64,000 nt of DNA from Erythrobacter donghaensis (GTDB lineage: Bacteria > Pseudomonadota > Alphaproteobacteria > Sphingomonadales > Sphingomonadaceae), in contig NZ_MUYG01000008.1 of NCBI RefSeq assembly GCF_002155425.1, positions 1-64,000 of the forward strand. The letters are read 5' to 3'. Made by a program: the position numbers and the translations under genes. The notes under the pieces were generated by a model. It made no database searches. It saw nothing but the letters and a program-made list of their open reading frames with translations, and was not told the origin of the DNA. Numbering within the stretch: the stretch's first letter is position 1; each line of letters opens with the position of its first letter. Shown here one piece after another: positions 34,734-62,551 of this stretch.

Positions 34734-34757
34734 GAATTCTCTCCCGTCGTCAGCCGC

Positions 34758-36125: not shown

Positions 36126-37211
36126 TCACATTTCGAGCGGGCCATGCTGGATATGCGGCAGCACGTGCCGCGCGAAGAGATCGGCTTCCTGCATGTGCGG
36201 ATAGCCCGATAGGATGAACGCCTCGATCCCTTCAGCCTGATAGGCGCGCAGCTTGGCGAGCACCTGATCGGGCGTGCCGACGATCGCCGCCCCGCAGCCG
36301 GAACGCGCCCGGCCGATGCCGGTCCACAGGTTCTCCTCGACGAATCCGTCGCCGTCGGCAGCCCCGCGCAGTTCCTGCTGCCGCTGGACACCGTAGTTTT
36401 TGGCATCGAGGCTCTTCTCGCGGATCGCGCGGCCCGCCTCGTCGTCGAGCTTCGAGAGCAGCCGGTCGGCATAGGCGCGCGCCTCGTCCTCGGTCTCGCG
36501 TACGATCACGTGGACGCGGTAGCCGAACTTGAGCGTGCGGCCATAATTGGCGGCCCGCGCCTTAAGGTCGGCGATGTTCTCGCGCACCTTGTCCATGGTG
36601 TCGGGCCACATCAGGTAGACGTCCGCCGCCTCGGCCGCACATTCGCGCGCTTCGTGGCTGAGGCCGCCGAAATAGAACGGCGGGCACTTGCCGCTGAGCG
36701 TGGTGATGCGCGGCGGATCGAGCTTCAGCTTGTAGAACTCGCCTTCGAAATCGAGATGCTCGCCGTTCAGCAGCGTTTTCACGATCTTCATGATCTCGGT
36801 GCCTCGGCGGTAGCGCGGGCCGCTCTCGATTTTCTCGCCCGGCATGTCGGACGAGATGATGTTGACGTTCAAACGCCCGCCGGTGCCGGCGGCATTGGGG
36901 CCGAGGATGCGGTCCAATGTCGCGATCCGGCGCGCGAGCTGCGGCGGCCAATCCTCGCCCATGCGGGTCGCCCACAGCAGCTTGATGCGCTTGACCTGCG
37001 TGGCGACGGCGGCGGCGAAGATCGTGGTGTCGACGCCAAGCTGGTAGCCCGAAGGCAGCAAGATGTTATCGAACCCGCCCTCCTCGGCGCGAGTGACGAT
37101 GTTGCGGCAATGCTCCCAGCTGGATTGCAGATAGGGATCGGGGACGCCGAGTAACTCGTAATCATCGTCGCACAGCGCGGAAAACCACGCGATTTCGCAT
37201 TGTTGGGTCAT
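36126..37211 (-). CDS. SsuD-like flavin-dependent sulfonate monooxygenase, probable sulfoquinovose monooxygenase (SmoC-like)
   Basis: An LLM-fold enzyme (361 residues) that would use FMNH2 and oxygen to cleave the C-S bond and release sulfite. It tracks alkanesulfonate monooxygenase SsuD closely: ILLPSGY near 50, ARRIATLDRI, GRLNVNIISSD near 115, FYFGGLSHEA near 180, FGYRVHVIVRETEDEA near 230 with the active-site Arg and His, and a C-terminal NLWTGIGRARSGCGAAIVGTP and SGYPHMQEADLF. The SsuD active-site Cys54 position is not Cys here, so a different sulfonate is likely. The neighbouring sulfoquinovosidase and aldo-keto reductase point to sulfoquinovose. A strong GGAGGAACC precedes ATG 37211. 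Family is certain; substrate inferred. Confidence 0.85.
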   Translation of the reverse strand: MTQQCEIAWFSALCDDDYELLGVPDPYLQSSWEHCRNIVTRAEEGGFDNILLPSGYQLGVDTTIFAAAVATQVKRIKLLWATRMGEDWPPQLARRIATLDRILGPNAAGTGGRLNVNIISSDMPGEKIESGPRYRRGTEIMKIVKTLLNGEHLDFEGEFYKLKLDPPRITTLSGKCPPFYFGGLSHEARECAAEAADVYLMWPDTMDKVRENIADLKARAANYGRTLKFGYRVHVIVRETEDEARAYADRLLSKLDDEAGRAIREKSLDAKNYGVQRQQELRGAADGDGFVEENLWTGIGRARSGCGAAIVGTPDQVLAKLRAYQAEGIEAFILSGYPHMQEADLFARHVLPHIQHGPLEM

Positions 37212-37230
37212 ATCAGGTTCCTCCGATTTC

Positions 37231-37321
37231 CCGTTCGCCCTGAGCTTGTCGAAGGGCCGTTTTTCTTTTGGGCTGGGGTGGAAAAGAATGTGCAGGGCTT
37301 CGACAGGCTCAGCCCGAACGG
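37231..37321. repeat. Dispersed inverted repeat (REP-like), copy 2
   Basis: Arms begin CCGTTCGCCCTGAGC and end CTCAGCCCGAACGG, 24 bases each and about 22/24 complementary, with a centre unlike that of the first copy. It occupies the whole gap between the aldo-keto reductase stop and the monooxygenase start, so it may separate expression of these two genes. Confidence 0.75.
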
Positions 37322-37328
37322 TGAAAGG

Positions 37329-38243
37329 TCAAGGCAAAGGCACGCCCCGCGCCGCGATCAGCACGGCGTACCAGTCGGTGCGCGTCCAGCGCACCTTGAG
37401 CGCCTCGGCCCCTTCGGCGATCCGCGCGGCGTTCTGCGAGCCGATGATCGGAATGATGCCCGCCGGGTGTGCCATCAGCCAGCTATAGGCACAGGCCGTG
37501 CGCGAGACGCCTTGCGCCTCGGCCACAGCATCGAGCGCCGCCGCCACAGCCTTTTCGCGAGCGGTTTCCGGCGCGGCGAGCCTGCCGCCCCCCAGCGGCG
37601 ACCATGCCATCGGGGTGAGGCCAAGCATCATCGCCTGATCGAGTTCACCGTTCTCGAAGCAGTCGATCCGCAAGGGGCTGATCTCGGGCTGGGTCGTCGC
37701 CAGCTTGTTTCCGAGGAAGTGCTGGAGCGCCGCGATCTGCGCTTGCGTGAAGTTCGAGACGCCCAGCGCGCGCACCTTCCCGCTCGCCACGGCGTCGTCC
37801 AGCACCCGCGCGACCTCCTGCGGGTGAGCGAGAATATCGGGGCGATGGATCTGCCATAGATCAACCGAATCCACCTGAAGGCGGCGCAGCGAATCGTCGA
37901 TCGCCTTGCGCAGATAGTCGGCGCTCTGGTCGTAGGGCAGCGGCGGGAGAATGCCGCCCTTGGTCGCCAGCACCATGCGGTCGCGCAAGGCAGGTTCGGC
38001 GGCGATCACCTCGCCCAGCAGCACCTCGGCATCGCCGAAGCCGCCAGAACCGTCAAAGCCATAAATGTCGGCGGTGTCGAGGAAGGTGATCCCGGCATCG
38101 AGCGCCGCATGCACAAGCTTCGCGGCGTCCGCTGTGGTGCGCCCGTCCTCGGCCAACCGCCACATGCCCCAGGCGATGGGCGAAACCTCGATAGTGCTCG
38201 CGCCAAGGCGGCGCGTTGCAGGCGGCAGGGGCAGTTCACTCAT
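37329..38243 (-). CDS. Aldo/keto reductase, probable 6-oxo-glucose reductase (SmoB-like)
   Basis: A NAD(P)H-dependent reductase of 304 residues with the TIM-barrel tetrad visible: Asp in ITFLDTADIYGFDG near 50, Tyr in the same motif, Lys in MVLATKGG near 85, and His in LWQIHRPD near 120. The cofactor region WSPLGGGRL and SQNAARIAEG is present. In the sulfo-SMO pathway the enzyme reduces 6-dehydro-D-glucose, the product of monooxygenase attack on sulfoquinovose, to glucose. Here it lies 2 bases after the LacI gene and beside the monooxygenase and sulfoquinovosidase. ATG 38243 has GAGGAA upstream. Substrate inferred from context. Confidence 0.85.
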   Translation of the reverse strand: MSELPLPPATRRLGASTIEVSPIAWGMWRLAEDGRTTADAAKLVHAALDAGITFLDTADIYGFDGSGGFGDAEVLLGEVIAAEPALRDRMVLATKGGILPPLPYDQSADYLRKAIDDSLRRLQVDSVDLWQIHRPDILAHPQEVARVLDDAVASGKVRALGVSNFTQAQIAALQHFLGNKLATTQPEISPLRIDCFENGELDQAMMLGLTPMAWSPLGGGRLAAPETAREKAVAAALDAVAEAQGVSRTACAYSWLMAHPAGIIPIIGSQNAARIAEGAEALKVRWTRTDWYAVLIAARGVPLP

Positions 38244-38245
38244 GG

Positions 38246-39250
38246 TCAGTTCCTCTTTGGGGGCGCGACCGAGGCGCGCTCGACAAGGTCGTGGGGCAGG
38301 CGCTTGTGGGTGATGTCCCCGCCTGTGATCAGGATTTGGGTGGCGGTGCGGGCAAGCTCGGCCATCGGCTGGTGGATGGTGGTGAGCGGCGGCCACACGG
38401 TGCGCGCCAGCGTGGTATCGTCGAAGCCCGCGACCGACAGTTGATGGGGCACGTCGATCCCGCGATCATGCGCCACGGCGAGCACCCCGGCGGCCATGTC
38501 GTCATTCGACGCGAAAATCGCCGTCGGCCGGTCAGGCAGGCCCAGCAGCGCATTCGCCCCGGCGACACCGCTGTCGAAATCGAACGCGCCATCGACCACG
38601 AGGCCGGGCTCGAACGGAATGCCCACGCGGTCGAGCGCGCGGCGGTATCCGAAAAGGCGGTCGTCAGAGGCCATGTGGTTGGTGTGGCCCTTGATGAACC
38701 CGATCCGCCGATGCCCTGCGTTGATCAGATGCGTGGTCATGTCGTCGGCGGCCTGCGCGTCGTCCATGAACACGCTCGAGGTCAGCGCATGATTGGTCCC
38801 CGGCGAAATCCGCACGAAGGGCACGTCCATCCCCTCCAGCGCGCGCAGCACGGGATCGCAATCGGTGACGGGGGAGGAGAGGATGATGCCATCCACATGG
38901 GTCTCGCTCACCAGCCCGCGCACCTGATCGCCGACCCGCGGATCGGCGACGTCGACGGGCTGGGCGAGCAGGCGGATGCCGGCCTCGTGGCACACATCCC
39001 AGCAGCCCTTCTGGATCTGGAACATGTAGTACGGGCTATGATTGTCGTAGATCAGCGCGACCTGATTGGACTTTGCGCCCGACAGGATGCGCGCGGCGAC
39101 CGAGGGGCGGTAATCGAGATCGACCATTGCCCGCTCGACCCGCTCCCGCAGCTCGGCACTTACGTAAGGGTGGCCGTTGAGCACCCGGCTGACGGTCTTG
39201 ACCGCCACCCCGGCGCGTGCGGCGACATCCCGGATATTGGCGCGGCTCAT
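38246..39250 (-). CDS. LacI family regulator of the sulfoquinovose locus
   Basis: A 334-residue repressor with helix-turn-helix NIRDVAARAGVAVKTVSRVL at 5-24 and an effector domain (VALIYDNHSPYYMFQIQKG; VAGFDDTTLARTVWPPLTTI). It overlaps the GH31 stop by 4 bases and is followed after 2 bases by the aldo-keto reductase, so it is embedded in the leftward operon and probably autoregulated. The candidate operator lies in the divergent promoter around 41273-41295. A sulfoquinovose-type ligand is inferred. Confidence 0.92.
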   Translation of the reverse strand: MSRANIRDVAARAGVAVKTVSRVLNGHPYVSAELRERVERAMVDLDYRPSVAARILSGAKSNQVALIYDNHSPYYMFQIQKGCWDVCHEAGIRLLAQPVDVADPRVGDQVRGLVSETHVDGIILSSPVTDCDPVLRALEGMDVPFVRISPGTNHALTSSVFMDDAQAADDMTTHLINAGHRRIGFIKGHTNHMASDDRLFGYRRALDRVGIPFEPGLVVDGAFDFDSGVAGANALLGLPDRPTAIFASNDDMAAGVLAVAHDRGIDVPHQLSVAGFDDTTLARTVWPPLTTIHQPMAELARTATQILITGGDITHKRLPHDLVERASVAPPKRN

Positions 39251-41235
39251 GCGGCTACTCCCGCGAACAGGGATGCGAAGGCACTTTCGGGGCGGTAGAA
39301 CACCGGCGGCTGCCCGATGGGCGCGGATACGTCGTGCCAACCCGGCGCGTAATCCGCGCCGCTCCACAGGTGCCGCCAATCGCCATCCGGCAGATAGACC
39401 TTGCGCATCACCGCCCCCGCCTCGATCACCGGTGCCACCATCATGTCCGCACCATAGAGGTATTGGTCCTGAATGGTGAAGCTCTGGCGGTCGTCCGGGT
39501 AGTGCAGGAACAGCGCGCGTTGGGCCGGAAGCCCCGTGGCCCGCGCCTCGGCGACGAGGTGCTGCACATAGGACGCGAGGTGCGCGTGGATGCGGCTGCA
39601 GCGGACGAAGCCTTCGATCAGTTCGGCGGTGGAATCGATCTGGAGGTTTTCGTCCGGCCGGTTGCCCTCATGCGTGCGGTACACCGGGCTGAAGGCGCCC
39701 AGCTCGTACCAGCGCAGCAGCAGTTCGGGCGTGCGGATATTGCCGAACAGGCTGGTGTAGCCGCCAACATCGGAATGGCTGAAGGCATTGCCGACGAGGC
39801 CCGATGACAGCGCGGCGGTGATCACGGTGCCGATGCCGTCATGGCGCGAGAAGTCGACCGACTGGTCGCCCGCCCACAACAAGGGGCAATGCGCCTGCAC
39901 CCCCGTGTGCCCGGCGCGCATGAACCATAGGACGTCGCCCGTCCGCCCGCGCGAGGCAACTGCGCGCGCGTTGACCTCTGCCCAGCGCACCGGCCAGCGG
40001 TTGTGCTCCTGCATCGGGTCGCCATCGAACAGGCGCAGATCGGTGGGGAGGTATTCGCCGAAGTCTGCCATCCAGCCATCGAGCCCGAAATCGAGCATCC
40101 GTTGGCCGATCACCTCCTCGGCGAACCATTCGGCGGCGGCGGGGTTGGTGAAATCGACCACGCCCGCGTGAAACTCGCCGAAGTCGACGGCATAGGGCTC
40201 GTCGCTGTCGAGGCACTTGGCGAAGTATCCCTTGGCGGCAGCCTCCGGGTAGAGCGGGCCGTCGACCGCGAGATAGGGGTTCACATAGCCAAGGAAGCGA
40301 ATGCCGCGCGCCTTCAGAGCGGCGATGCGCGCGGGGAGATCGGGATAGCGCTCGGCGTTCCACTGCCAGTCCCAGAACAGGCGGCGACCGAAGCTGGTCT
40401 CGCGGATGCCGACCCAGTCTTCGCACCACAGGCCCGCGACCGCGGCGCCTGCGTCAATCAGGGCTTCGAGCCGCTCGAAGCTCGCCTCACCCTGCTTAAA
40501 GCCGACGATCGCACCCCCCAGCGCCCACTCGGGCAGCGCCGGGCGCGAGCCGAAGCGTGCGCCAAGCTGCCGGGTGAGATCGGCGGGCGCGCCTTCGAAC
40601 AGGTCGATGCGGGCCTCGTGCGACCAGACATGAACCCGCAGCCGCCCGGCTTCGCGCGCGTCGAGTTCGACATATTCGGCGTTGGCGAGGCTGATCGCCC
40701 ACCCGGCCGAACACAGCACCGTTGGCTCGGGATAATTGGTCGTCCAGTAGTCCCCGCCGGCAAAGCTGCCGTCCGCGCTCGCCTGATCGGTCAGCGGCGT
40801 TCCCGGCTCGCGCCCGACACCCGGCTCGCTCGTCCACATCGGGAAATTGCGGCCATTGAGAACGAGGTAGCTCATCTGCTCGCCCCCACCCCACAGCACA
40901 TCATCGGGCGCGAGATCGAAGTCGATGGTGACGCGGTCATGTCCGGTCGGCGCGACGAGAGTGAGCCGGGATGCATCAGGCGCAAGATTCGCGGCCAGTT
41001 TCACGCTGCCATCGGCGCTCGAGAGCACCATCGCGTCCTCCCCCGCCACTTCGCACTGCGATAGTGGCATCGCCGCCACAGGGGCATCGGCGAGGCGAAA
41101 ATTGCCGCGCACCATCGTCACCTGAGGATCGCCCGAAGCCACGGAAATAGCGAGGCTTTCAGGCCGGTGTCGCAGCACAACCCGCCCGGCCAGCCGCAGG
41201 TCAAAACCCCCCTCGCTTGGCGTCAGCTGCACCAT
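39247..41235 (-). CDS. smoI: GH31 sulfoquinovosidase (YihQ/SmoI type, K-E-R-W-Y motif)
   Basis: Retaining alpha-glycosidase of 662 residues that releases sulfoquinovose from its glycosides such as sulfoquinovosyl glycerol. GH31 landmarks: nucleophile Asp391 in GWMADFGEYLP, acid/base Asp457 in WAGDQ, and HSDVGGYTSLF. The residues known to bind the sulfonate and sugar in YihQ and the Agrobacterium enzyme align: Lys247 (GFKQGE), Glu272 (WCEDW), Arg285 (FGRR), Trp288 (LFWDW) and Tyr493 (GGYTS). This is the K-E-R-W-Y set described for the Agrobacterium enzyme rather than the Q-Q-R-W-Y of E. coli. There is no signal peptide, so it is cytoplasmic. The assignment rests on remembered motif positions, which fit with a constant offset of two from the Agrobacterium numbering. 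Confidence 0.9.
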   Translation of the reverse strand: MVQLTPSEGGFDLRLAGRVVLRHRPESLAISVASGDPQVTMVRGNFRLADAPVAAMPLSQCEVAGEDAMVLSSADGSVKLAANLAPDASRLTLVAPTGHDRVTIDFDLAPDDVLWGGGEQMSYLVLNGRNFPMWTSEPGVGREPGTPLTDQASADGSFAGGDYWTTNYPEPTVLCSAGWAISLANAEYVELDAREAGRLRVHVWSHEARIDLFEGAPADLTRQLGARFGSRPALPEWALGGAIVGFKQGEASFERLEALIDAGAAVAGLWCEDWVGIRETSFGRRLFWDWQWNAERYPDLPARIAALKARGIRFLGYVNPYLAVDGPLYPEAAAKGYFAKCLDSDEPYAVDFGEFHAGVVDFTNPAAAEWFAEEVIGQRMLDFGLDGWMADFGEYLPTDLRLFDGDPMQEHNRWPVRWAEVNARAVASRGRTGDVLWFMRAGHTGVQAHCPLLWAGDQSVDFSRHDGIGTVITAALSSGLVGNAFSHSDVGGYTSLFGNIRTPELLLRWYELGAFSPVYRTHEGNRPDENLQIDSTAELIEGFVRCSRIHAHLASYVQHLVAEARATGLPAQRALFLHYPDDRQSFTIQDQYLYGADMMVAPVIEAGAVMRKVYLPDGDWRHLWSGADYAPGWHDVSAPIGQPPVFYRPESAFASLFAGVAA

Positions 41236-41272
41236 TCCAGCCCCGTAATCCTCCGCAGACCTGTCCCTTGGC

Positions 41273-41295
41273 TCTGTCTGACACCGCTTGACAGA
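41273..41295. promoter_or_regulatory. Inverted repeat in the divergent sulfoquinovose promoter
   Basis: TCTGTC and GACAGA, 11 bases apart, lie in the 164-base gap between the GH31 start and the TonB receptor start and overlap a -35-like TTGACA (41288-41293). It is a candidate LacI-regulator site. The symmetry is weak compared with the sucrose operators, and no other palindrome stands out in this gap. Confidence 0.35.
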
Positions 41296-41399
41296 TCGGG
41301 GTAGAAAGCGCAACCCGAAGGCTGAAAGATCGACCGCACGGGCGATGGTCTTGTGACACGCCCGAAAGAACCGATCACGACGCAGGGGAGAACATCACG

Positions 41400-43712
41400 A
41401 TGCCGACCACCACCCGTATTGCGCTCAAAGCGTTGGCCCTGTCGGCCAGTTCGCTCGCGCTGATCACCACTGCCCCTGCCATGGCGCAGGTCGAGGAAAT
41501 CATCGTTACCTCGCAAAAAGTCGAGGAAAATGTGCAGGATGTGCCGATCGCCATCACGGCGGTGAGCGGCGACCGGCTGGATCAGGCGCTGGTCTTCAGC
41601 CTCGAGAACATCTCGACCGTCGTCCCCTCGGTGACCTTCCGCAAGGGCACCACCAGCGCCAACAGCGCGATCGTGATGCGCGGCGTCGGCACCATCAGCT
41701 TCTCGGTCGCGGCCGAGCCCAGCGTGTCCACCGTTGTCGACGGCGTGGTGCTGAGCCGTTCGGGCCAGGCCTTCATGGACCTTGTTGACCTAGAACGGCT
41801 CGAAGTGCTGCGCGGTCCGCAGGGCACGCTGTTCGGCCGCAACGCCTCGGCCGGCCTCGTCAATATCGTGTCGAAGGGCGGCACCGACACATTCGAGGCT
41901 CAGGCCAGCGCCGACTGGTTCGAAGGCGACGAATACCGTCTGCGCGCCGCAATCTCCGGCCCGCTGGCCGAGAACATCAGCGCGCGCCTGACCGGTTTCT
42001 ACGGCACCTTCGATGGCAACATCACCAACATCAACGGCGGCACCAACAACACCGTCAACGGCTATGAGCGCTACGGCCTGCGCGGGATCGTCGATTATGA
42101 CGACGGCAGCAACAAGGTCCGCCTGATTGCCGACTATTACGAGGCGGACGACGACTGCTGCGCCGACGTGACCGGGGTCAGCCGTGGCAATGCGGTGCAG
42201 GATGCCGAGCTCGGCCTGCCCGGCGGCCCGGCGCAGGGCGAAGACCAGCGCTTCATCAACCACAACCTCGTCACCCGCACGCAGGACAAGCAGTGGAGCC
42301 TGACCGGCACCGGCGATTTCGACATCAGCGACACTTACACGCTGAGCGTGGTGCTGGGCTACCGCAACTGGTTCAACCGCGAGCTGCGCGAAGGCGACTT
42401 CCTGCCCCGCGCCATCGTCGGCGTGGGCGAACTGCACGATAACGGCGTGGTCAAGACCGAGCAGGTCTCGGCCGAAATCCGCATCGCATCGGACCAGAGC
42501 AAGGCCTTCTTCTATCAGGCGGGCGCCTTCATCTGGCAGTCGGACAACACGCAGGACTTCACCCGCAACAACATCACCTGCGCCAGCTCGACCTTGCCGC
42601 TCGCCCCCAGCGGGGCGCGGCCGTGCAATCTCAACGATCCGGTCAACACGATCTTCCCGACCGCCACCTCGCGCAGCGAAGTGCGATCGGTCAACTACGC
42701 GCTGTTCAGCCAGGCGACCTATCGCTTCACCGAGCAGCTCTCGCTGACCGGGGGCCTGCGCTACACGTGGGACGATCTTGAGTTCACCCACACCCGCGCG
42801 CCGGGGATCAACCGCACCACCGGCCTCCCGGCGACCGGTCCGGGCGTCAACGGCAACCCCGCGGGCGGCACCATCGCCAACGGCGGCAACGGCACCAACA
42901 CCTCCTCGGGCGAGACCACCAACGGCAACCTCTCGGGCCGCGCGGTACTGCAGTTCGAGCCGTCGGACGACATCATGCTCTACGGCTCCTACACCCGCGG
43001 CTACAAGGGCCCGGCGTTCAACGTGTTCTTCAACCACACCGCGCCCAACAACGCCCGCCCGATCGACGAGGAAATCTCCGACAGCTTCGAAATCGGGGTG
43101 AAGTCGCAGTTCCTCGATCGCCGGGTGCAGCTGAACGTCGCCGCCTTCTCGGTCGAATATGACGGGTTCCAGGCCAACAACTTCGTGCTGATCAACGGCG
43201 CGACGGTGTCGAACCTGACCAATGCCGGGACGGTGAAGAGCGAAGGCTTCGAAGCCGATCTGATCGTCAACCCGGTTGGCGGGCTGAACCTGCGCGCGAG
43301 CGCGGCCTATGCCGATGCCCGCGTCAAGGAGTTCAACCCCAACCCGCTCACCAATGCGCCGAGCGCGATCAACGGCACTCAGCTGCCGCTCGCGCCCAAG
43401 TTCGTCTACACTCTCGGCGGCGATTACACTGCCGATCTGGGCGACAAGGCGGTGCTCTACCTCAACACCGATTTCCGCCACACCAGCCGGCAGTTCTCCG
43501 ATCTGGGTGAGGCGGGGCCGATCGATCCCTATGGCATCTGGAACGCCTCGGTCGGGTTCTCCGATCCGGAGGACAAGTATCGCCTGACCTTCCACGTCCG
43601 CAACATCACCGACGAGAGCTACGTGCTGCTCAACGTCGAGAACGGACGCCGCCTGCAGATCCCGCGCGATGCGGATCGCTATTTCGGGGTCAGCTTGCGC
43701 GCCCGGATGTGA
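41400..43712 (+). CDS. TonB-dependent receptor, probable sulfoquinovose-glycoside uptake
   Basis: A 770-residue outer-membrane receptor. Signal peptide ending APAMAQ near 30, TonB-box-like EEIIVTSQK at 33-41, plug region with RGVGTISFSVAAEPSVSTVV and LERLEVLRGPQGTLFGRNAS, and a beta-barrel ending in YFGVSLRARM. The ATG follows CAGGGGAG. It leads the rightward eight-gene operon and is divergent from the sulfoquinovosidase, which suggests that it imports sulfoquinovosyl glycerol or a related glycoside. A terminator-like hairpin after it may set it above the downstream genes. Substrate by context only. Confidence 0.9.
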   Translation: MPTTTRIALKALALSASSLALITTAPAMAQVEEIIVTSQKVEENVQDVPIAITAVSGDRLDQALVFSLENISTVVPSVTFRKGTTSANSAIVMRGVGTISFSVAAEPSVSTVVDGVVLSRSGQAFMDLVDLERLEVLRGPQGTLFGRNASAGLVNIVSKGGTDTFEAQASADWFEGDEYRLRAAISGPLAENISARLTGFYGTFDGNITNINGGTNNTVNGYERYGLRGIVDYDDGSNKVRLIADYYEADDDCCADVTGVSRGNAVQDAELGLPGGPAQGEDQRFINHNLVTRTQDKQWSLTGTGDFDISDTYTLSVVLGYRNWFNRELREGDFLPRAIVGVGELHDNGVVKTEQVSAEIRIASDQSKAFFYQAGAFIWQSDNTQDFTRNNITCASSTLPLAPSGARPCNLNDPVNTIFPTATSRSEVRSVNYALFSQATYRFTEQLSLTGGLRYTWDDLEFTHTRAPGINRTTGLPATGPGVNGNPAGGTIANGGNGTNTSSGETTNGNLSGRAVLQFEPSDDIMLYGSYTRGYKGPAFNVFFNHTAPNNARPIDEEISDSFEIGVKSQFLDRRVQLNVAAFSVEYDGFQANNFVLINGATVSNLTNAGTVKSEGFEADLIVNPVGGLNLRASAAYADARVKEFNPNPLTNAPSAINGTQLPLAPKFVYTLGGDYTADLGDKAVLYLNTDFRHTSRQFSDLGEAGPIDPYGIWNASVGFSDPEDKYRLTFHVRNITDESYVLLNVENGRRLQIPRDADRYFGVSLRARM

Positions 43713-43744
43713 TGAGCACCTTCAGGTCGTGACATCACCAAACG

Positions 43745-43770
43745 GGGCCGCCGGAGCGATCCGGCGGCCC
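43745..43770 (+). terminator. Strong hairpin inside the sulfoquinovose operon
   Basis: GGGCCGCCGG, loop AGCGAT, CCGGCGGCCC, then TTCTTGTCT, 32 bases after the TonB receptor stop. It is likely a partial terminator that lets the receptor be made in excess of the MFS transporter and later enzymes, as at the sucrose locus. Confidence 0.7.
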
Positions 43771-43808
43771 TTCTTGTCTGCCCCCGCGATGAAATCTAGG
43801 AACCCTTG

Positions 43809-45071
43809 ATGCACGCCAACCCCTCGCCCATTGCCGCGCGCCTGCGCTGGTCGCTGTTCACGGTGCTGTGCATCGCGGGGGTGTTCAACGCGATGGACCG
43901 CCCGATCATCGCGATCCTCAAGCCCGACATGATGGCCGATTTCGGCTGGAGCGACAGCGATTTCGGCGATCTGGCCGCAGTCACGCAGTTCTCCGCCGCC
44001 TTCGCTTTCCTGTTCACCGGCTGGCTGGTGGACCGGCTGGGGGTCAACCGCTCGATGCAGGTGGGCGCATCTGCCTGGAGCCTTGCTGCGATGGCGCACG
44101 GCTGGGCGCTGACGACATGGCAGGTGGTCGCTGCGCGCGTGGGTCTCGGCGTGACCGAGGCGGTGCAGACCCCGCTCACCATCAAGACCGTCGCAGCGCT
44201 GTTCCCGCCCGACAAGCGCAGCTTCGCCTTCGGCTTTGCGACATTGCTAGCGGGCGCGGGGACGATTGCGATGCCCTTCGTCATTCCGGCGTTGGCGCTC
44301 AGCGTCGGCTGGCGCGGGGCGCTGGTGGCGGGCGGGATCGGCGGCTTCATCTCGCTGCTCGCATGGATGTGGCTCGCGCGCGGCATCAGCCAGCTGCGCC
44401 AGCGCGGCGGGGAGGAAACGGCGGCGGAAACCGCGGGCGGCGAGGCCTATGGCCCGATCCTGATGAACCGCCAGACCTGGGCGATCGTCGGTGCCAAGGC
44501 GCTGTCGGACATGACCTGGTGGTTCATCAATTTCTGGCTCGCCGATTACTACCGCAAGGAATTCGGGCTCTCAACCCTGGAACTGGCGGTGCCGCTGGCG
44601 ATTGCCTTTGCCGGATCGGGCCTCGGCGCACTGCTGGCTGGCTGGGCCTCGACCCGCTTGCTCGAAGCCGGGTGGAGCCCCAACCGGGTGCGCAAAGGCG
44701 TGATGCTGGTCTCGGCGCTGATCGTCGCTCCGCTGCCGCTGGTGCTGGAGCTGAACGCGTTCTGGCCGGTGGCGGTGATGATCGGCGTGGTGATGGCCGG
44801 GCATCAGGGCTTCTCGCTCTCGCTGTTTTCGACCATCACGGACGTCGTGCCGCAGGTTAAGGTCGGGCGGGTGACGGCCTTCGGTGCCTTCATGGGCAAC
44901 ATGGGCGGCGTGGCGATTTCGCTCGTCGCGGGGCGGGTGCTCGATGCGGGGCTCGGCTTCGTGCCGCTGTTCATCTTTGCCGCTTCGTCCTATCTGGTGG
45001 CACTGGCATGGTTCCAGTGGCTGCTGCCGGAGATCCGCCGTCCGGAAGAAGCGGACGCCGTCTTCGCCTGA
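43809..45071 (+). CDS. MFS transporter (anion:cation symporter-like), probable sulfoquinovose-glycoside carrier
   Basis: A 420-residue inner-membrane carrier with about 12 helices. N-terminal FTVLCIAGVFNAMDRPIIAIL, GWLVDRLGVNRSMQVGA in the first cytoplasmic loop, and FINFWLADYYRKEFGLS after the middle resemble the hexuronate/ACS branch that carries anionic sugars. ATG 43809 has AGGAA upstream; TTG 43806 is possible. Its place after the TonB receptor suggests that it moves an anionic sugar sulfonate from periplasm to cytoplasm, where the sulfoquinovosidase acts. Substrate inferred. Confidence 0.88.
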   Translation: MHANPSPIAARLRWSLFTVLCIAGVFNAMDRPIIAILKPDMMADFGWSDSDFGDLAAVTQFSAAFAFLFTGWLVDRLGVNRSMQVGASAWSLAAMAHGWALTTWQVVAARVGLGVTEAVQTPLTIKTVAALFPPDKRSFAFGFATLLAGAGTIAMPFVIPALALSVGWRGALVAGGIGGFISLLAWMWLARGISQLRQRGGEETAAETAGGEAYGPILMNRQTWAIVGAKALSDMTWWFINFWLADYYRKEFGLSTLELAVPLAIAFAGSGLGALLAGWASTRLLEAGWSPNRVRKGVMLVSALIVAPLPLVLELNAFWPVAVMIGVVMAGHQGFSLSLFSTITDVVPQVKVGRVTAFGAFMGNMGGVAISLVAGRVLDAGLGFVPLFIFAASSYLVALAWFQWLLPEIRRPEEADAVFA

Positions 45072-45145
45072 GGCCGGGCGGTTGCCAAACCGGGCGACGC
45101 GGGCTAGGAATATGACACCGTGAGACAGATAACGGATCAGCCGGC

Positions 45146-46237
45146 ATGAAGCGCGACGCGCGCCCCGATTTCGAGGCCTTTGCCGGCGATCTGTTCGGCG
45201 AGATGGTGCTTGCCGAAAGCGCGGCCGCCACTCCCCGCGCGCGCCGTCCGCTCTCGCGCTTCGTCCCCGGTCTTGCGATTGCCGCCATCGCGGGCGCGGC
45301 GGCGGCGTGGCTGGCGCAGAACTACGGGGTGCCGGTGATCCTCGCCGGGCTGCTGATCGGCCTCGCGCTCAATTTCGTCGCGGGCGATGTGCGCACCCAT
45401 GACGGGCTCGACGCCGTCTCGCGCCATGGCCTCAGGGCCGGGATCGTGCTGCTGGGCTTTCAGGTGACGGCGATGCAGGTGATGGGCATGGGCGCGGTGC
45501 CGTTCCTCGGCCTCGCGCTGGTGATGGCCGCCGCGCTCGCCGCCGCGCTCGCCGCGGCGCGGGTGACGGGGCAGAGCCCTGCCATCGGCCTGCTCGCCGG
45601 GGGCGCAACCGCGATTTGCGGCGCATCAGCGGCGCTGGCGCTCTATGGCGTGATCGGGCGCGAGCGGGTCGATCAGGCGCAGTTCACGCTGACGCTGGTG
45701 ATCCTTGCCGCCGCATCGGCCATCGCGCTGGTCACCTATCCGATGCTGGCGACCGCGCTCGATTTTTCCGACGCGCAGGCCGGGTTCCTGACTGGAGCCG
45801 CGATCCATGACGTCGCGCAGTCGATCGGCGCAGGCCTTGCCGTGTCCGACGCGGCAGGCGCGCAGGCGACGGTGGTGAAGCTCACCCGCGTCGCCCTGCT
45901 TGCCCCGCTGGTGACGCTCGCCGCCTTGTGGATCGCGCGCGTGCAGCCGCTGCCCGCCGGGGTGGGCAAGGCGCGCGTGCCGCTGCTGCCCGGGTTCATC
46001 CTCGCATTCCTGGCGCTGGTCGCGGTGAATTCGCTCGTCACCCTGCCCGCCCCGCTGGCGGCGCACGCGCTGACAGCCTCCAAGACCCTGCTGCTGCTCG
46101 CTGTCACCGCCACCGCGATGCGCACGCGCACCGACCTGCTGCTCGACCTCGGCTGGCGCGCGGTGATGCCGGTGCTGGCGGCGACCATCGCTTCACTTGT
46201 GGTCGCGCTCGCCTTCGCGATAGGGGTGATCCCATGA
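45146..46237 (+). CDS. YeiH/UPF0324 family putative sulfate/sulfite exporter
   Basis: A 363-residue inner-membrane protein with about ten hydrophobic segments. Family phrases: VILAGLLIGLALNF, GLRAGIVLLGFQVT, GGATAICGASAALAL and GAAIHDVAQSIGAG (PF03601). Members are putative sulfate exporters often found with organosulfonate catabolism. Here it probably exports the sulfite released by the monooxygenase to the periplasmic sulfite dehydrogenase encoded downstream. Its stop overlaps the glpD start by 4 bases. Confidence 0.85.
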   Translation: MKRDARPDFEAFAGDLFGEMVLAESAAATPRARRPLSRFVPGLAIAAIAGAAAAWLAQNYGVPVILAGLLIGLALNFVAGDVRTHDGLDAVSRHGLRAGIVLLGFQVTAMQVMGMGAVPFLGLALVMAAALAAALAAARVTGQSPAIGLLAGGATAICGASAALALYGVIGRERVDQAQFTLTLVILAAASAIALVTYPMLATALDFSDAQAGFLTGAAIHDVAQSIGAGLAVSDAAGAQATVVKLTRVALLAPLVTLAALWIARVQPLPAGVGKARVPLLPGFILAFLALVAVNSLVTLPAPLAAHALTASKTLLLLAVTATAMRTRTDLLLDLGWRAVMPVLAATIASLVVALAFAIGVIP

Positions 46238-47724
46238 GCACGATGTTCGATCTGGCCGTGATCGGCGGCGGCGTGAACGGCGCAGGCGTCGCGCGCGACG
46301 CCGCCGGGCGAGGGGCGCGAGTGCTGCTGCTGGAACGCGGCGATCTGGCCGAGGGCACTTCGTCCAATTCGACCAAGCTGATCCACGGCGGCCTGCGCTA
46401 TCTGGAGCATTACGAATTCAGCCTGGTGCGCGAGGCCTTGACCGAGCGCGAGGTGCTGTGGGGCATCGCGCCGCACATCATCTGGCCGCTGCGCTTCATC
46501 CTCCCCCACCGCCCCGGCCTGCGCCCGCGCTGGCTGCTGCGGCTGGGGCTGTTCCTCTACGATCACTTGGGCGGGCGGAAATATCTGCCCTCGGCCAAGA
46601 GCATCGATCTGGCGAACCACCCCGCGGGCGCACCGCTGAAGCCCGAATTCAACCGTGCCTTCGCCTATTCCGATGGCTGGGTGGACGATGCGCGGCTGGT
46701 GGTGCTCAACGCGCGCGACGCCGCCGATCGCGGCGCAGAAGTGCGCACCCGCTGTGAAGTCACCGCGCTCAGCCGTGAGGGCGATCACTGGCGGATCGCG
46801 GCGGGGGGCGAGACCTTTACTGCCCGCGCGGTCGTCAACGCAGCCGGGCCGCGCGTGCTCGATCTGCTGGGCCGGGCAGGCGAGCCGACCACCCAGCGGA
46901 TGCGGCTGGTGCGCGGGTCGCACATCGTGGTGAACAAGCTGTTCGACCATAACTTTGCCTATTTCTTCCAGCTGCCCGACGGGCGGATCTTCTTCGCCAT
47001 TCCCTACGAGAGCGACTTCACCCTAATCGGCACCACCGATGTCGATCACACCGGCAGCCTCGACGAGGTGCACGCCAGCCCTGAAGAAATCGCCTATCTG
47101 TGCGAAGGCGCCTCGGAATATTTCCGCACGCCCGTCACCCCGGCCGACGTGGTCTGGACCTATTCCGGGGTGCGCCCGCTGATCGATGATGGTTCGGGCA
47201 AGCCGGAAGCCGCGACCCGCGGCTACAGTTTTGAGCTTGATGGCGGGGCGGACGGCACCGCGCCGCTGCTCTCGGTGTTCGGCGGCAAGATCACCACCTA
47301 TCGCGAACTGTCGACCGAGGCGGTGGAGAAGCTGGCGCCCTTCCTGCCGGTGCTGCAAGGCGCGGACTGGACAGGCAGCGCGCCCTTGCCCGGCGGTGAT
47401 TTCGGGCGCTTCGATGCCCCTGCTCTCGCCCGCGAACTGATGGCGCAGTATCCCTTTCTGAGTGAGCACGACGCGGCGCGGCTGGTGCGCCTCTACGGCA
47501 CGCGGGCACGGTCGATCCTCGGCACCGCCAGCACCGCCGCCGACCTTGGCGAGGATTTCGGCCACGGGCTTACCGCCGCCGAAGTCGACCACCTTGTCGC
47601 ACACGAATGGGCCCGCACACCCGATGACATCCTGTGGCGGCGCACCAAGCTGGGGCTGCGCTTCACGCCTGAACAGACGGCCCGCCTAACGACCTATCTC
47701 GCTGAAAGGATCACCCCTGCATGA
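46234..47724 (+). CDS. glpD: Aerobic glycerol-3-phosphate dehydrogenase
   Basis: FAD enzyme of 496 residues that oxidises glycerol-3-phosphate to dihydroxyacetone phosphate and passes electrons to the quinone pool. FAD-binding start DLAVIGGGVNGAGVARDAAGRG at 6-27, then GTSSNSTKLIHGGLRYLEHYEFSLVREAL, and FGGKITTYRELSTEAVEKL near 350. All are typical of GlpD. Overlaps of four bases on both sides place it firmly in this operon. If the imported compound is sulfoquinovosyl glycerol, GlpD would serve the glycerol half. A glycerol kinase is not seen in the window. Confidence 0.95.
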   Translation: MSTMFDLAVIGGGVNGAGVARDAAGRGARVLLLERGDLAEGTSSNSTKLIHGGLRYLEHYEFSLVREALTEREVLWGIAPHIIWPLRFILPHRPGLRPRWLLRLGLFLYDHLGGRKYLPSAKSIDLANHPAGAPLKPEFNRAFAYSDGWVDDARLVVLNARDAADRGAEVRTRCEVTALSREGDHWRIAAGGETFTARAVVNAAGPRVLDLLGRAGEPTTQRMRLVRGSHIVVNKLFDHNFAYFFQLPDGRIFFAIPYESDFTLIGTTDVDHTGSLDEVHASPEEIAYLCEGASEYFRTPVTPADVVWTYSGVRPLIDDGSGKPEAATRGYSFELDGGADGTAPLLSVFGGKITTYRELSTEAVEKLAPFLPVLQGADWTGSAPLPGGDFGRFDAPALARELMAQYPFLSEHDAARLVRLYGTRARSILGTASTAADLGEDFGHGLTAAEVDHLVAHEWARTPDDILWRRTKLGLRFTPEQTARLTTYLAERITPA

Positions 47725-48293
47725 CCCGCATCGTAGCCCTTGGCGGCACGGTCAATCCCGGCTCCTCCACCGAGCAGGCGCTGCGCCTTGCCGCCAGCGT
47801 CGCGGCTGCCGAAGGGGCCGAGGTGACGGTGTTCGGCGGCGAATACCTCACCGCCCTCCCCCACTATCTCGGCCCGGATCACAGCGCCGGATTGGGCTCG
47901 GAAATGGTTGCTGCGGTGCGCGCGGCGGACGGACTGCTGGTCGCCGCACCCGGCTATCACGGCACTATCTCAGGCGTGGTCAAGAACGCGCTCGATTACC
48001 TTGAGGATCTGGCGAAGGACGAGCGCCCCTACCTCGATGGCCGGGCCGTGGGTCTGATCGCCACGGCTTTCGGCGATCAGGCCTCGATGTCGACGCTGCT
48101 GACGATGCGCGCCATCACCCACGCCCTGCGCGGCTGGCCGACCCCGATGGGCGCAACGATCCGCACCTATCGCGGGCTGTTCTCGCCCGACGGCGAGTGC
48201 CTTGACGAGCGCGCGCGCGGACAGCTGGAACTGGTCGGCAAGCAGGTCGTGCTCGGCGCGAAGAGCTTTGCCGCCGGGCGGGATCTGGCGTGA
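47721..48293 (+). CDS. NAD(P)H-dependent FMN reductase (flavodoxin-fold)
   Basis: A 190-residue flavin reductase of PF03358. FMN phosphate loop GGTVNPGSSTEQAL at 8-21, and APGYHGTISGVVKNALDYLEDL near 75-95, the family signature. It most likely supplies reduced FMN to the SsuD-like monooxygenase, the role played by SsuE or SmoA in two-component sulfonate systems. It overlaps glpD by four bases and the next gene by one. Confidence 0.9.
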   Translation: MTRIVALGGTVNPGSSTEQALRLAASVAAAEGAEVTVFGGEYLTALPHYLGPDHSAGLGSEMVAAVRAADGLLVAAPGYHGTISGVVKNALDYLEDLAKDERPYLDGRAVGLIATAFGDQASMSTLLTMRAITHALRGWPTPMGATIRTYRGLFSPDGECLDERARGQLELVGKQVVLGAKSFAAGRDLA

Positions 48294-48916
48294 TGACCGC
48301 GGCGCTCGACCACGATCTCGACGGCGCGCTCGCGGCGATTGCCGCGGGGCGGATCGTCGTGCTCGCGGGTGACCGGCTGCGCGGCGGGGATATCGACTTC
48401 ATGTGCCCGGCCAGCGCGGTGACGCCCGAGGTGATCAACTTCATGGCCACCCACGGGCGCGGCCTGATCTGCCTCGCGGTGACGCCCGAGCGCGCCGCGC
48501 GGCTGGGGCTGACGCTGATCAATCCCGGCCCGCACCGCCAGACCGGGCGCCCCTTCGCCCGCTCGATCGAGGCGGCGCATGGGGTCTCGACCGGCATTTC
48601 CGCCGCCGACCGCGCGCATACCGTGCAGGTCGCCATCACCGAAGGAGCGTGCGCGGCGGACATACACTCGCCCGGCCACGTCTTTCCGCTGATCGGTCAG
48701 CCCGGCGGCGTGCTCGCGCGGCCCGCTGCCTGCGAAGCTTCGATCGACCTCGCGCGGATGGCGGGCGTGGGCGATGCGGCGGTGATCTGCTCGATCATGC
48801 GCGACGATGGCGAAATGGCGCGGATCGACGATATCGGCGATCTGATCGCCGCGCACCGGCTCGCAGTAGCGGATATCAGCGCGCTGATCGAGCGGCTTGA
48901 AAGGGCAGACGCATGA
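48293..48916 (+). CDS. RibB-like (3,4-dihydroxy-2-butanone-4-phosphate synthase) protein with altered metal loop
   Basis: A 207-residue protein of the RibB fold. TPEVINFMATHGRGLICLAVTPERA near 40-65, SIEAAHGVSTGISAADRAHTV near 85-105, PGHVFPL near 125 and ICSIMRDDGEMAR near 165 match RibB well. The metal and substrate loop, DRENEGD in E. coli RibB, is instead DRLRGGD at 27-33, so the Mg-binding Glu and a second Glu are lost while the Arg and last Asp remain. It may be inactive for riboflavin synthesis, act on another sugar phosphate, or be a flavin-related scaffold. ATG 48293 is preferred over GTG 48290. It is followed by the sorA-like start in an ATGA overlap. Confidence 0.8.
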   Translation: MTAALDHDLDGALAAIAAGRIVVLAGDRLRGGDIDFMCPASAVTPEVINFMATHGRGLICLAVTPERAARLGLTLINPGPHRQTGRPFARSIEAAHGVSTGISAADRAHTVQVAITEGACAADIHSPGHVFPLIGQPGGVLARPAACEASIDLARMAGVGDAAVICSIMRDDGEMARIDDIGDLIAAHRLAVADISALIERLERADA

Positions 48917-50127
48917 GCGAGGGCAAGCTCACCCGCCGCACGCTGATCGCCGGGGCAGGCGTTACCGCGCTGGCCGCACCGGTGCTGGCGCAGCAGGCCG
49001 GACGGCTGATCGACCTTGGCCTCCCCGGCGGGCCGAGCCTGCGCCCGCTGGAACCCGTCTTCCCCGGCAAGGGCGAAATGATTGTCCACCGCGTCCGCCC
49101 GCCGGTGCTGGAAACGCCGATGAGCGCCTTTCGCGAGGGCGTGATCACGCCCAATGACCGGATGTTTGTGCGCTGGAACTGGCCTTTCCCGACCGAAATC
49201 AAGGCGAACGAGCACCGCGTGGCGGTCGGCGGCGCGGTGAAGCGGGCAGCGTCGCTGACGCTGGACGAGGTGGCCGCTGCGGGCGAGCATGTCTCGGTCG
49301 TCGCGGTCAACCAATGCGCGGGCAACGGGCGCGGGCTATCGCAGCCGCGCGTCACCGGTGGGCAGTGGGGCAATGGCGCGATGGGCTGCGCGAAGTGGAC
49401 CGGCGTGCGGGTGCGCGATGTGCTCGCCAAGGCCGGCGGCACCGCCCCCTGGGCCAAGCGCGTGCGCTTCGCCGGGCTCGACGTGCCGCTCACCGACGGC
49501 GCGCCGCAATTCATCAAATCGCTTCCGATGGACATGGCGATGCGCGACGACGTGCTGGTCGCTTGGGCGATGAACGACGAACCGCTCCCGATCCTCCACG
49601 GCTTCCCCTTGCGGATCGTGGTGCCGGGGTGGTTTTCGACCTATTGGGTCAAGATGCTCGCCACGATCGAAGTGATCGATGACGAGGAAGACCCGAGCCA
49701 CTATATGGCGGACACCTATCGCTTTCCGGCAGCGCCGGTGCAGCCGGGCGACAAGGGCTTCCCCACCGTCCCCATCACCACCATGCCGCCGCGCAGCTTC
49801 ATCACCAGTCATGCCGACGGAGACACCGTCGCGCTCGGCAAGCCGCTGGTGCTGGAGGGGATCGCCTTCGGCGGCGATGCCGCACTCGACCGGGTCGATC
49901 TGGTCGGAATGGGCTGGGAGATTCCCTGCACCCTCGCCCCGGATGACCTTGGCCCCTACGCTTTCCGCCGGTGGTGGGTGGAGCTGCCGCAGGTCGCGGG
50001 TGATTTCGAACAGGTCGGCGTGCGCGCCCGCAACGTGAACGGCGCGGTGCAGCCCGAAACCTTCGTCTGGAACCCTTCGGGCTATGCCCGCAACGTGATC
50101 GAACGCATCACCCTGAGGGCACAATGA
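48913..50127 (+). CDS. sorA: Periplasmic sulfite dehydrogenase, molybdenum subunit (SorA/SorT-like)
   Basis: Sulfite oxidase-family molybdoenzyme of 404 residues. A Tat signal is visible (TRRTLIAGAGVTALAAPVLAQ at 7-27). The molybdenum-ligating Cys is Cys135 in NQCAGNGRGLSQPR, followed by GAMGCAKWTGVRVRDVL, the family signature. The C-terminal dimerisation domain has VLEGIAFGGDAALDRVDLVG. It oxidises sulfite to sulfate in the periplasm and passes electrons to cytochrome c. The overlapping next gene encodes a c-type cytochrome, matching SorAB. Position downstream of the exporter and monooxygenase reductase supports sulfite disposal. Confidence 0.9.
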   Translation: MSEGKLTRRTLIAGAGVTALAAPVLAQQAGRLIDLGLPGGPSLRPLEPVFPGKGEMIVHRVRPPVLETPMSAFREGVITPNDRMFVRWNWPFPTEIKANEHRVAVGGAVKRAASLTLDEVAAAGEHVSVVAVNQCAGNGRGLSQPRVTGGQWGNGAMGCAKWTGVRVRDVLAKAGGTAPWAKRVRFAGLDVPLTDGAPQFIKSLPMDMAMRDDVLVAWAMNDEPLPILHGFPLRIVVPGWFSTYWVKMLATIEVIDDEEDPSHYMADTYRFPAAPVQPGDKGFPTVPITTMPPRSFITSHADGDTVALGKPLVLEGIAFGGDAALDRVDLVGMGWEIPCTLAPDDLGPYAFRRWWVELPQVAGDFEQVGVRARNVNGAVQPETFVWNPSGYARNVIERITLRAQ

Positions 50128-50453
50128 GAGCGCTTGCCATCCTCCCCGCACTCGCGCTGCTGGCCGCCTGCGACAGCGCGCCGGGCGTCTCCTTCGCCGA
50201 CGCCAGCATCACCCTGCCCGACGATCCCGTCGACCTTCCCGAAGGCCCGGGGCGCGAGGAAGTGCTGGCCAATTGCACTGCCTGCCATTCGCCCTCGACC
50301 ATGTTGCAACAGCCCAAGGTGCCCCGCGAAAAGTGGGAGGGCATCGCAAAGAAGATGATCGAGACCTACAAGGCCCCGGTCGACGAGACGACGATCCCGA
50401 GAATCGTGGATTACATGGTGTTCGTGCAGGAACAGGGCGAAGCGGCGCAATAG
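50124..50453 (+). CDS. sorB: Lipoprotein c-type cytochrome, SorB-like
   Basis: A small monohaem cytochrome of 109 residues. Lipobox ALLAACDS with Cys16, and haem-binding CTACH at 51-55. The Met in the KKMIETYK segment is a plausible axial ligand. It overlaps the sulfite dehydrogenase gene by four bases and is the likely electron acceptor. Lipid anchoring would hold it at the inner membrane near the oxidase chain. It ends the rightward operon, 10 bases from the converging GGDEF-EAL gene. Confidence 0.88.
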   Translation: MRALAILPALALLAACDSAPGVSFADASITLPDDPVDLPEGPGREEVLANCTACHSPSTMLQQPKVPREKWEGIAKKMIETYKAPVDETTIPRIVDYMVFVQEQGEAAQ

Positions 50454-53462: not shown

Positions 53463-53554
53463 GGCTGAGGGTGGCCTTACGGCACACCCCTTAAGAAACC
53501 TTCGCCGCATGGTTTAGGGCAATTTTACCCTTTCAGGCTAGCCGGGCAGGCGAG

Positions 53555-60919: not shown

Positions 60920-60923
60920 CGGA

Positions 60924-61859: not shown

Positions 61860-61898
61860 TTCGAACAGTCTCCTGACTGCAAGACGGAGTCGCACGCC

Positions 61899-62495: not shown

Positions 62496-62551
62496 AGGCA
62501 CAAATCAAAGGCCCGAACAGGCCCGAGCAAAAGCCTCGGCGCGCCGCGCGA

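Follow-up and report, generated by a model that had tools for sequence, protein, structure and literature searches.

The window examined here, contig C6:1-64000, is a stretch of 64,000 nucleotides taken from a genome of 3.37 Mb with an estimated completeness of 100%; the closest named relatives are Erythrobacter and Porphyrobacter. Between positions 36126 and 50453 it holds a predicted locus for the use of the sulfo-sugar sulfoquinovose, in which the genes for a GH31 glycosidase, a LacI-family regulator, an aldo-keto reductase and a SmoC-type monooxygenase run leftward, and those for a TonB-dependent receptor, an MFS carrier, a YeiH-family exporter, GlpD, an FMN_red-family protein, a RibB-like protein, a SorA-type sulfite dehydrogenase and a c-type cytochrome run rightward. 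These twelve genes and their orientations had been proposed in an earlier note on the same DNA and are all recovered from the translated open reading frames together with their Pfam and NCBIfam matches, the cytochrome being recognized through NCBIfam SorB and the Protein Data Bank (PDB). The listed reading frames extend too far 5′ for five genes, with translation and gene overlaps placing the likely starts at 41235 (GH31), 39250 (LacI), 38243 (aldo-keto reductase), 43809 (MFS) and 46234 (GlpD). On the leftward side, GH31 and LacI overlap by 4 nucleotides, LacI and the aldo-keto reductase are separated by 2, and the latter and SmoC by 117. Every junction from yeiH through glpD, the FMN_red gene, the ribB-like gene and sorA to the cytochrome gene is a 4-nucleotide overlap; thus, the rightward group described earlier is present, and forms a tighter unit than had been stated, with six genes overlapping throughout.

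The leftward genes encode the core of the predicted pathway. The predicted sulfoquinovosidase of the GH31 family (39247..41235, minus strand; no signal peptide seen by eye) finds its top PDB matches in 5ohy and 5ohs (770 and 768 bits), followed by two further GH31 entries (634 and 626 bits) and Escherichia coli YihQ (570 bits). Entries 5ohs and 5ohy are labeled alpha-glucosidase yihQ in the PDB and are what we take to be the sulfoquinovosidase AtSQase. Alignment to 5ohy shows identity in the K, E, R, W and Y columns and in the catalytic acids, presumably the KERWY motif with its sulfonate-binding and catalytic residues, in keeping with the sulfoquinovosidase motif ascribed to this enzyme in the earlier note. 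The predicted SmoC/SquD-type flavin-dependent sulfoquinovose monooxygenase of the LLM family (36126..37211, minus strand; PF00296) scores 363 bits against 7oh2, its best PDB match, as compared to 204 bits against 7jv3, the best of the SsuD type, and the SmoC-type gene is the sole match in the genome to query P0001 at E≤0.001. We assume 7oh2 and 7olf, which the PDB labels alkanesulfonate monooxygenase or methanesulfonate sulfonatase, to be SmoC from Agrobacterium/Rhizobium. Likewise, the SmoB/SquF-type aldo-keto reductase (37329..38243, minus strand; PF00248), a predicted 6-dehydroglucose reductase, scores 203 bits against 7bbz, its best PDB match, as compared to 148 bits for the next family, YdhF; 7bbz and 7bby, labeled aryl-alcohol dehydrogenase, are presumably the corresponding SmoB. 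Sequence tests thus recover three components of a sulfo-SMO pathway, namely a GH31 enzyme with sulfonate-binding residues, a SmoC-type LLM monooxygenase and a SmoB-type aldo-keto reductase. We posit that the GH31 enzyme would free sulfoquinovose and glycerol in the cytoplasm, that the SmoC-type monooxygenase with FMNH2 would cut the C–S bond to give sulfite and 6-dehydroglucose, and that the aldo-keto reductase would convert the latter to glucose.

The rightward genes begin with the TonB-dependent outer-membrane receptor (41400..43712, plus strand; PF00593, PF07715) and the MFS carrier (43809..45071, plus strand; PF07690), the latter being nearest to the TIGR00893 type, albeit at 103 bits, under the cut-off of 395. 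These are the predicted importers, with sulfoquinovosyl glycerol entering via the receptor and then the inner-membrane carrier. The released sulfite would be exported by the YeiH-family protein (45146..46237, plus strand), a predicted sulfite exporter with 150.5 bits against PF03601 (cut-off 24.5). The SorA-type molybdenum sulfite dehydrogenase (48913..50127, plus strand; PF00174) contains the stretches LTRRTLIAG and NQCAGNGRG, shows a Tat signal by eye, and has the SorA chain of 2blf as its best PDB match (278 bits). The following SorB-like lipoprotein c-type cytochrome (50124..50453, plus strand), with one CTACH and a lipobox seen by eye, gave no match in a Pfam scan; its best PDB match is 2blf_B (E 1.7e-9). 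Both the family and the cytochrome partner of a SorAB pair, as in the 2blf complex that we believe to come from Starkeya novella, are therefore found. In the periplasm, the dehydrogenase and its cytochrome would oxidize sulfite to sulfate and pass the electrons to respiration.

The earlier note had suggested searching for the same gene set in other Sphingomonadales. In a sample of 396 genomes of the order, SmoC is encoded at E≤1e-90 in 88 (SmoC-positive) and not in the other 308 (SmoC-negative). The 88 loci that we searched are the window plus, for each of the other 87 genomes, a stretch of at most 20 kb surrounding SmoC; the queries were the twelve proteins, with an identity of at least 45% required unless stated. 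The set does recur, in several gene orders: the aldo-keto reductase is found in 84 of these loci, LacI in 69, GH31 in 61, YeiH in 40, the FMN_red protein in 38, GlpD in 34, the RibB-like protein in 31, SorA in 22 and the cytochrome in 10, with the TonB receptor and MFS carrier present at an identity of at least 60% in 40 and 24, respectively. These counts are lower bounds, since the fetched stretches are limited. In one rearranged locus (L043) a GlpD–FMN_red–RibB-like block lies behind SmoC, with MFS and YeiH divergent, and such recurrence in rearranged orders indicates that the arrangement reflects more than chance. SorA (E≤1e-70) occurs in 42 of the 88 SmoC-positive genomes as compared to 14 of the 308 SmoC-negative ones, and all 13 sampled SmoC-positive genomes of the window's genus possess the RibB-like protein, the FMN_red protein and SorA. 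We also considered named loci, being the best 80 of 562, in which a 10 kb flank loses the RibB-like gene in the Erythrobacter layout and Novosphingobium aromaticivorans is not included.

The nature of the imported substrate is suggested by a glycerol arm. GlpD (46234..47724, plus strand), an aerobic glycerol-3-phosphate dehydrogenase, scores 737 bits against NF009906 (cut-off 352), and a GlpK gene lies elsewhere on the window's contig. In relatives, GlpK is found at an identity of at least 59% in 9 of the 88 SmoC-positive loci, a count that leaves out two 37% kinase matches (L103, L109), and at 54–66% in 16 of the named loci, many of which are from genomes of the 88-locus set. A plasmid of Novosphingobium pentaromativorans (US6-1) carries GH31, LacI, the aldo-keto reductase, SmoC, GlpD and GlpK in one run. 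Given GlpD, and the GlpK gene that adjoins it in certain relatives, the substrate taken up is probably sulfoquinovosyl glycerol. The released glycerol would then pass through GlpK and GlpD.

A DNA element shared by both parts of the locus was spotted by eye as a 15-mer in intergenic regions of relatives and tested afterwards. In the whole 3.37 Mb genome there are exactly two copies of the 15-mer TGACACCGnnnGACA and none of its reversed control: site 1 (TGACACCGCTTGACA; 41279..41293, plus strand) lies in the intergenic region from which the GH31 and TonB receptor genes diverge, and site 2 (TGACACCGTGAGACA; 45113..45127, plus strand) is upstream of the overlapping run from yeiH to the cytochrome gene. 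A search for palindromes in 48 GH31/TonB intergenic regions found none common to more than three of them, with the GH31 starts of some loci placed further 5′ than they should be. The looser pattern TGAC[AC][AC]CGnnnGACA has 94 sites in the 88 loci versus none in 316 kb of other regions (L150-L169), and two in 1.7 Mb of Markov-resampled sequence. Of these, 53 lie no more than 300 bp away from where GH31 or TonB starts (such a site being present in 53 of the 88 loci, the window included), and 39 of the remaining 41 lie no more than 130 bp away from the start of YeiH, MFS, GlpD, FMN_red or the aldo-keto reductase. The same pattern is present in 67 of the named loci, with at least two copies in 53. 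For whole genomes we used TGACAMCGnnnGACA, of which 31 of 33 sites in 17 SmoC-positive genomes fall inside the locus; two genomes unscored for SmoC have no site, and the reversed pattern yields three in all 31 genomes. The pair of 15-mers and the concentration of the pattern at the locus support a single regulon that includes sulfite disposal. The candidate reader is the LacI-family regulator (38246..39250, minus strand; PF00356 with PF13377), which we infer would bind both sites: loci with LacI at an identity of at least 54% carry the element in 55 of 56 cases, and other loci in 1 of 32, in a comparison whose threshold was chosen after the data were seen and which is confounded by GH31 presence and phylogeny. 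As a separate observation, a 15-mer-like site (TGACAACGTGAGACA) precedes the aldo-keto reductase gene in a Novosphingobium locus (L051), though no LacI gene was found there.

Taken together, these sequence comparisons make it likely that the locus is one regulon, predicted to serve life on sulfoquinovosyl glycerol by combining import, hydrolysis, C–S cleavage, and the export and oxidation of sulfite. The sulfo-SMO assignment made in the earlier note, and its proposals of TonB/MFS import and of sulfite export and oxidation with a coupled cytochrome, gain support from the best-matching structures, recurrence and the common DNA element. Several observations weigh against this interpretation. GH31 was not found in the fetched stretch of 27 of the 88 SmoC loci. 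More than half of the fetched SmoC-positive loci lack the FMN_red and RibB-like genes, as does the US6-1 locus, the incomplete gene table of which shows no FMN_red, RibB-like, YeiH or SorA gene; both are thus dispensable for the pathway. Homologs of the FMN_red protein (E≤1e-45) are present in 31 of 308 SmoC-negative genomes, as compared to 44 of 88 SmoC-positive ones. YeiH falls under the cut-off of TIGR00698 (74 of 233 bits), and its homologs are found in 36 of 61 congeners, including seven SmoC-negative ones (47–60% identity); hence, YeiH alone is no marker. SorA and the cytochrome miss their NCBIfam equivalog cut-offs (NF052245, 409 of 600 bits; NF052246, 69.8 of 93 bits). Moreover, SorA adjoins SmoC in just 22 of the 88 loci, lies on a separate contig in three congeners (G258, G321, G371), and is only 44–53% identical outside the genus. 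The 15-mer lacks the clean palindromic form that is usual for LacI operators. Twelve SmoC-negative genomes contain 10 scattered TGACAMCGnnnGACA sites, which outnumber those of the reversed control, so the pattern, though concentrated at the locus, is not wholly specific to it. Four of these scattered matches are in one genome (G346) and three in another (G331).

The SmoC-type monooxygenase would require reduced flavin, for which the FMN_red-family protein (47721..48293, plus strand; PF03358) is a candidate supplier. The earlier note had called it an FMN reductase, which holds at the level of the family and of the fold: in a fold comparison of its predicted structure (pLDDT 81.2), SsuE is the first, flavodoxin-like match, with ArsH, MsuE, Pden_5119 and other FMN_red proteins close behind at nearly equal scores. 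By sequence it is only distantly related to SsuE, with about 20% identity and 29.9 bits against the family model, far under the cut-off of 164, and, as a further difference from SsuE, its gene overlaps that of the RibB paralog. No PF01613 reductase, presumably the family of SmoA, was found in the window's genome, as compared to 13 positives among 14 control genomes. Where it is present, the FMN_red protein is the natural candidate reductase for SmoC, and would supply it with FMNH2. Across 20 fetched loci with an FMN_red homolog away from SmoC there was no SmoC match, with one genome (G272) coding for SmoC elsewhere. In the 8 of these 20 that are listed, no neighbor is universal; GlpD occurs in two, and an acyl-CoA-synthetase-like reading frame, recognized by eye, is near the FMN_red gene in two. 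In loci L150-L157, from SmoC-negative genomes, the homologs are 68–73% identical and have no adjoining RibB-like gene; the homolog still adjoins GlpD in L155 and L156, and in L154 a 76% identical aldo-keto reductase adjoins it near the contig start.

The gene overlapping that of the FMN_red protein codes for a RibB-like protein (48290..48916, plus strand), which scores 201 bits against PF00926 and whose AF2 model (mean pLDDT 91.8) matches RibB structures in Foldseek: RibB and RibBX entries (1g57, 6mnz, 4p77) are recovered with query TM scores of about 0.85–0.89 and, for the bacterial top matches, 35–43% identity. At E≤1e-70 it is confined to SmoC-positive genomes, being present in 35 of 88 as compared to none of 308 SmoC-negative ones (Fisher p 2e-26), a value that, like our other Fisher p-values, overstates certainty because the genomes share ancestry, a further point on the opposing side. 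In all 31 loci that have it, it is next to the FMN_red gene, with a 4-nucleotide overlap in 21 and a junction within 2 nucleotides in 8, the remaining two being distorted by start choice. We tallied its residues over these 31 loci in alignment to the RibBA of the window's genome (E. coli numbering). His153 is lost in all 31, being replaced by Ala in 28 and Thr in three; Glu38 is replaced by Gly in 24 and Arg in three, with one each of Ser, Asp, Glu and His. In one of the 31 (L042) the columns Glu38–Asp42 are unreliable, as the match covers model positions 38–198 (G130). In structural work on RibB, Glu38 and His153 are reported to be metal ligands of DHBP synthase. The window's genome has a canonical RibBA (C5:94107) that keeps both residues.

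These changes argue against ordinary riboflavin synthesis. The earlier assignment to RibB is correct as regards family and fold, but the protein cannot be taken as an ordinary RibB at face value, and we rejected a plain biosynthesis gene given the altered residues and the canonical copy elsewhere. One alternative is that it has kept its DHBP synthase activity and raises the supply of riboflavin for a flavin-hungry monooxygenase, as with the RibB-type genes of lux operons that boost riboflavin supply. The retained fold, the conservation of Arg37, His136 and Glu155 in 31/31 and of Asp42 in 30/31, the conservative change of Glu40 to Asp in 30/31, and the constant proximity of an FMN reductase gene are in keeping with this. 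Against them stand the uniform absence of His153, the retention of Glu38 in 1/31 (with Asp in another), and the complete RibBA already available to the cell, and we regard continued activity as unlikely. Instead, the protein is likely, from its sequence, to be repurposed and no longer a normal DHBP synthase. As a guess, it could be a flavin-holding or flavin-handing partner bound to the flavin reductase, or a sensor of phospho- or sulfo-sugars. A more specific scheme, possible but short of probable, is that a RibB fold stripped of its metal-binding catalytic residues might act as a third component that hands over or gates reduced flavin between the SsuE-fold reductase and SmoC, with a single operator, specific to the sulfo-sugar and restricted to the locus, turning on the whole system.

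Other readings bear on the locus as a whole. Sulfo-SMO-like chemistry might be directed at a different sulfo-sugar or sulfonated glycoside, such as those of the sulfofucose or sulforhamnose types. The SmoC family is evidently diverse, with 14 of 29 plasmid matches falling below 60% identity and thus implying at least two subfamilies, and the 27 loci lacking a visible GH31 would also fit a different substrate. The window's GH31, by contrast, is closest to the structure that we take to be AtSQase and has identical motif residues. Moreover, according to PMC9594981, sulfoquinovose has been demonstrated to be a substrate of such a pathway in Novosphingobium, and we hold another sulfo-sugar to be improbable. 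A similarly low probability attaches to the proposal that the sulfo-sugar genes merely happen to neighbor YeiH, SorA and the cytochrome, whose function would lie in the general metabolism of sulfite or thiosulfate. The 14 SmoC-negative genomes with SorA, its off-locus position in the three congeners, and the YeiH homologs of the seven SmoC-negative congeners speak in its favor; on the other side, the three genes are part of a single overlapping run behind the second 15-mer, YeiH keeps its site in rearranged loci, and SorA is enriched in SmoC-positive genomes. Finally, an ordinary alpha-glucoside locus next to an unrelated alkanesulfonate monooxygenase, as might be read from the NCBIfam PRK10426 'alpha-glucosidase' match (809 bits, cut-off 553; presumably the YihQ model) and the nearness of the LLM protein to SsuD, is hardly credible and was rejected, as was an SsuD alkanesulfonate system, because YihQ-type sulfoquinovosidases are the best PDB matches, the SsuD equivalog score reaches 247 of the 518 bits needed, and GH31, LacI, the aldo-keto reductase and SmoC recur together in relatives.

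Some related loci and neighboring genes merit separate description. A Rhizobium sp. WSM4643 plasmid (L257, 1-13059) codes for an LLM monooxygenase 71% identical to SmoC, adjoining LacI and an ABC importer, along with a sulfo-ED-like set (SDR, SMP-30 lactonase, AraD-type dehydratase, aldolase and alpha-glucosidase) and no listed aldo-keto reductase; two sulfoquinovose routes may coexist there. Novosphingobium EMRT-2-type loci (L256, L051, L211, L213) have SmoC and the aldo-keto reductase near GH31 (51–52%) and a TonB receptor, with no LacI found; L256 additionally has a phytanoyl-CoA dioxygenase-family gene and a fatty-acyl-CoA ligase. Ten loci (L082-L085, L088-L093) with SmoC homologs of 70–73% identity show neither GH31 nor the 15-mer in the fetched stretch, with the aldo-keto reductase in 8, a TonB receptor in 9 and LacI (50%) in L090 only; these may act on a free sulfo-sugar or another sulfonate. 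In the window itself, the locus is flanked by two acyl-CoA dehydrogenases (33603-35954, minus strand) and a CHASE4-HAMP-GGDEF-EAL protein (50464-53487, minus strand), with no tie to it seen, and a FecIR-like set of TonB receptor, FecR and sigma-70-family genes is found at 58466-62501 (minus strand).

The sulfo-SMO pathway of Agrobacterium tumefaciens (smoA-I) was reportedly described by Sharma et al. in 2022, and the sulfo-ASMO cluster of N. aromaticivorans, with SquD and SquF, is said to have been described by Liu et al. in 2021. What the window locus has in common with the former is the sulfoquinovosidase, the monooxygenase of SmoC type, the aldo-keto reductase of SmoB type and a regulator, together with a predicted full use of the sugar carbon with sulfite release. 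It differs in having a TonB receptor and MFS carrier instead of an ABC importer among its twelve genes, in the absence of a PF01613 match from the genome, and in the addition of YeiH, SorA, the cytochrome, GlpD, the FMN_red and RibB-like proteins and the common DNA element. With the N. aromaticivorans cluster it shares the predicted core chemistry and the bacterial order. The catalytic subunit and small c-type cytochrome are encoded side by side as in SorAB (2blf), whereas the window's cytochrome has a lipobox and both subunits score under the equivalog cut-offs. As with the CuyZ/YeiH exporters (cuyZ being named a sulfite exporter in R. pomeroyi, and its Pfam family presumably PF03601), a PF03601 protein adjoins a sulfite-releasing enzyme; in the window, however, it is tied to a sulfo-sugar locus.

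The earlier note had held this gene combination to be undescribed as a unit, which is too broad, since the core pathway is already published in the sphingomonad N. aromaticivorans and some of the accessory genes may be drawn in the primary publications. In the parts of PMC12890257, PMC13372026 and PMC9594981 consulted, the sulfo-SMO/ASMO pathway is placed in Agrobacterium and Novosphingobium; the sulfite dehydrogenase in that of PMC9594981 concerns sulfolactate degraders. Judged by titles and the beginnings of abstracts, the open-licence papers that mention sulfoquinovose along with TonB, Erythrobacter or sulfite dehydrogenase do not describe a comparable locus. What appears to be new is the genome-unique pair of 15-mers, the conserved RibB-like protein without His153 beside the FMN_red protein, and the glycerol arm; the core pathway is not.

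Sulfoquinovose is counted among the most abundant organosulfur compounds in an excerpt of PMC12890257, and one of PMC13372026 names Agrobacterium and Novosphingobium as predominant degraders in its freshwater incubations. As far as the relevant section of PMC9594981 goes, N. aromaticivorans lacks SsuE and other flavin reductases are presumed, leaving open the reductase of such clusters; the window locus offers a candidate. It also offers a full route from sulfite to sulfate and a likely operator outlining the regulon, each testable in culture-collection strains. Finally, the conserved RibB paralog, which lacks residues needed by its relatives, could point to a new way in which reduced flavin is handled.

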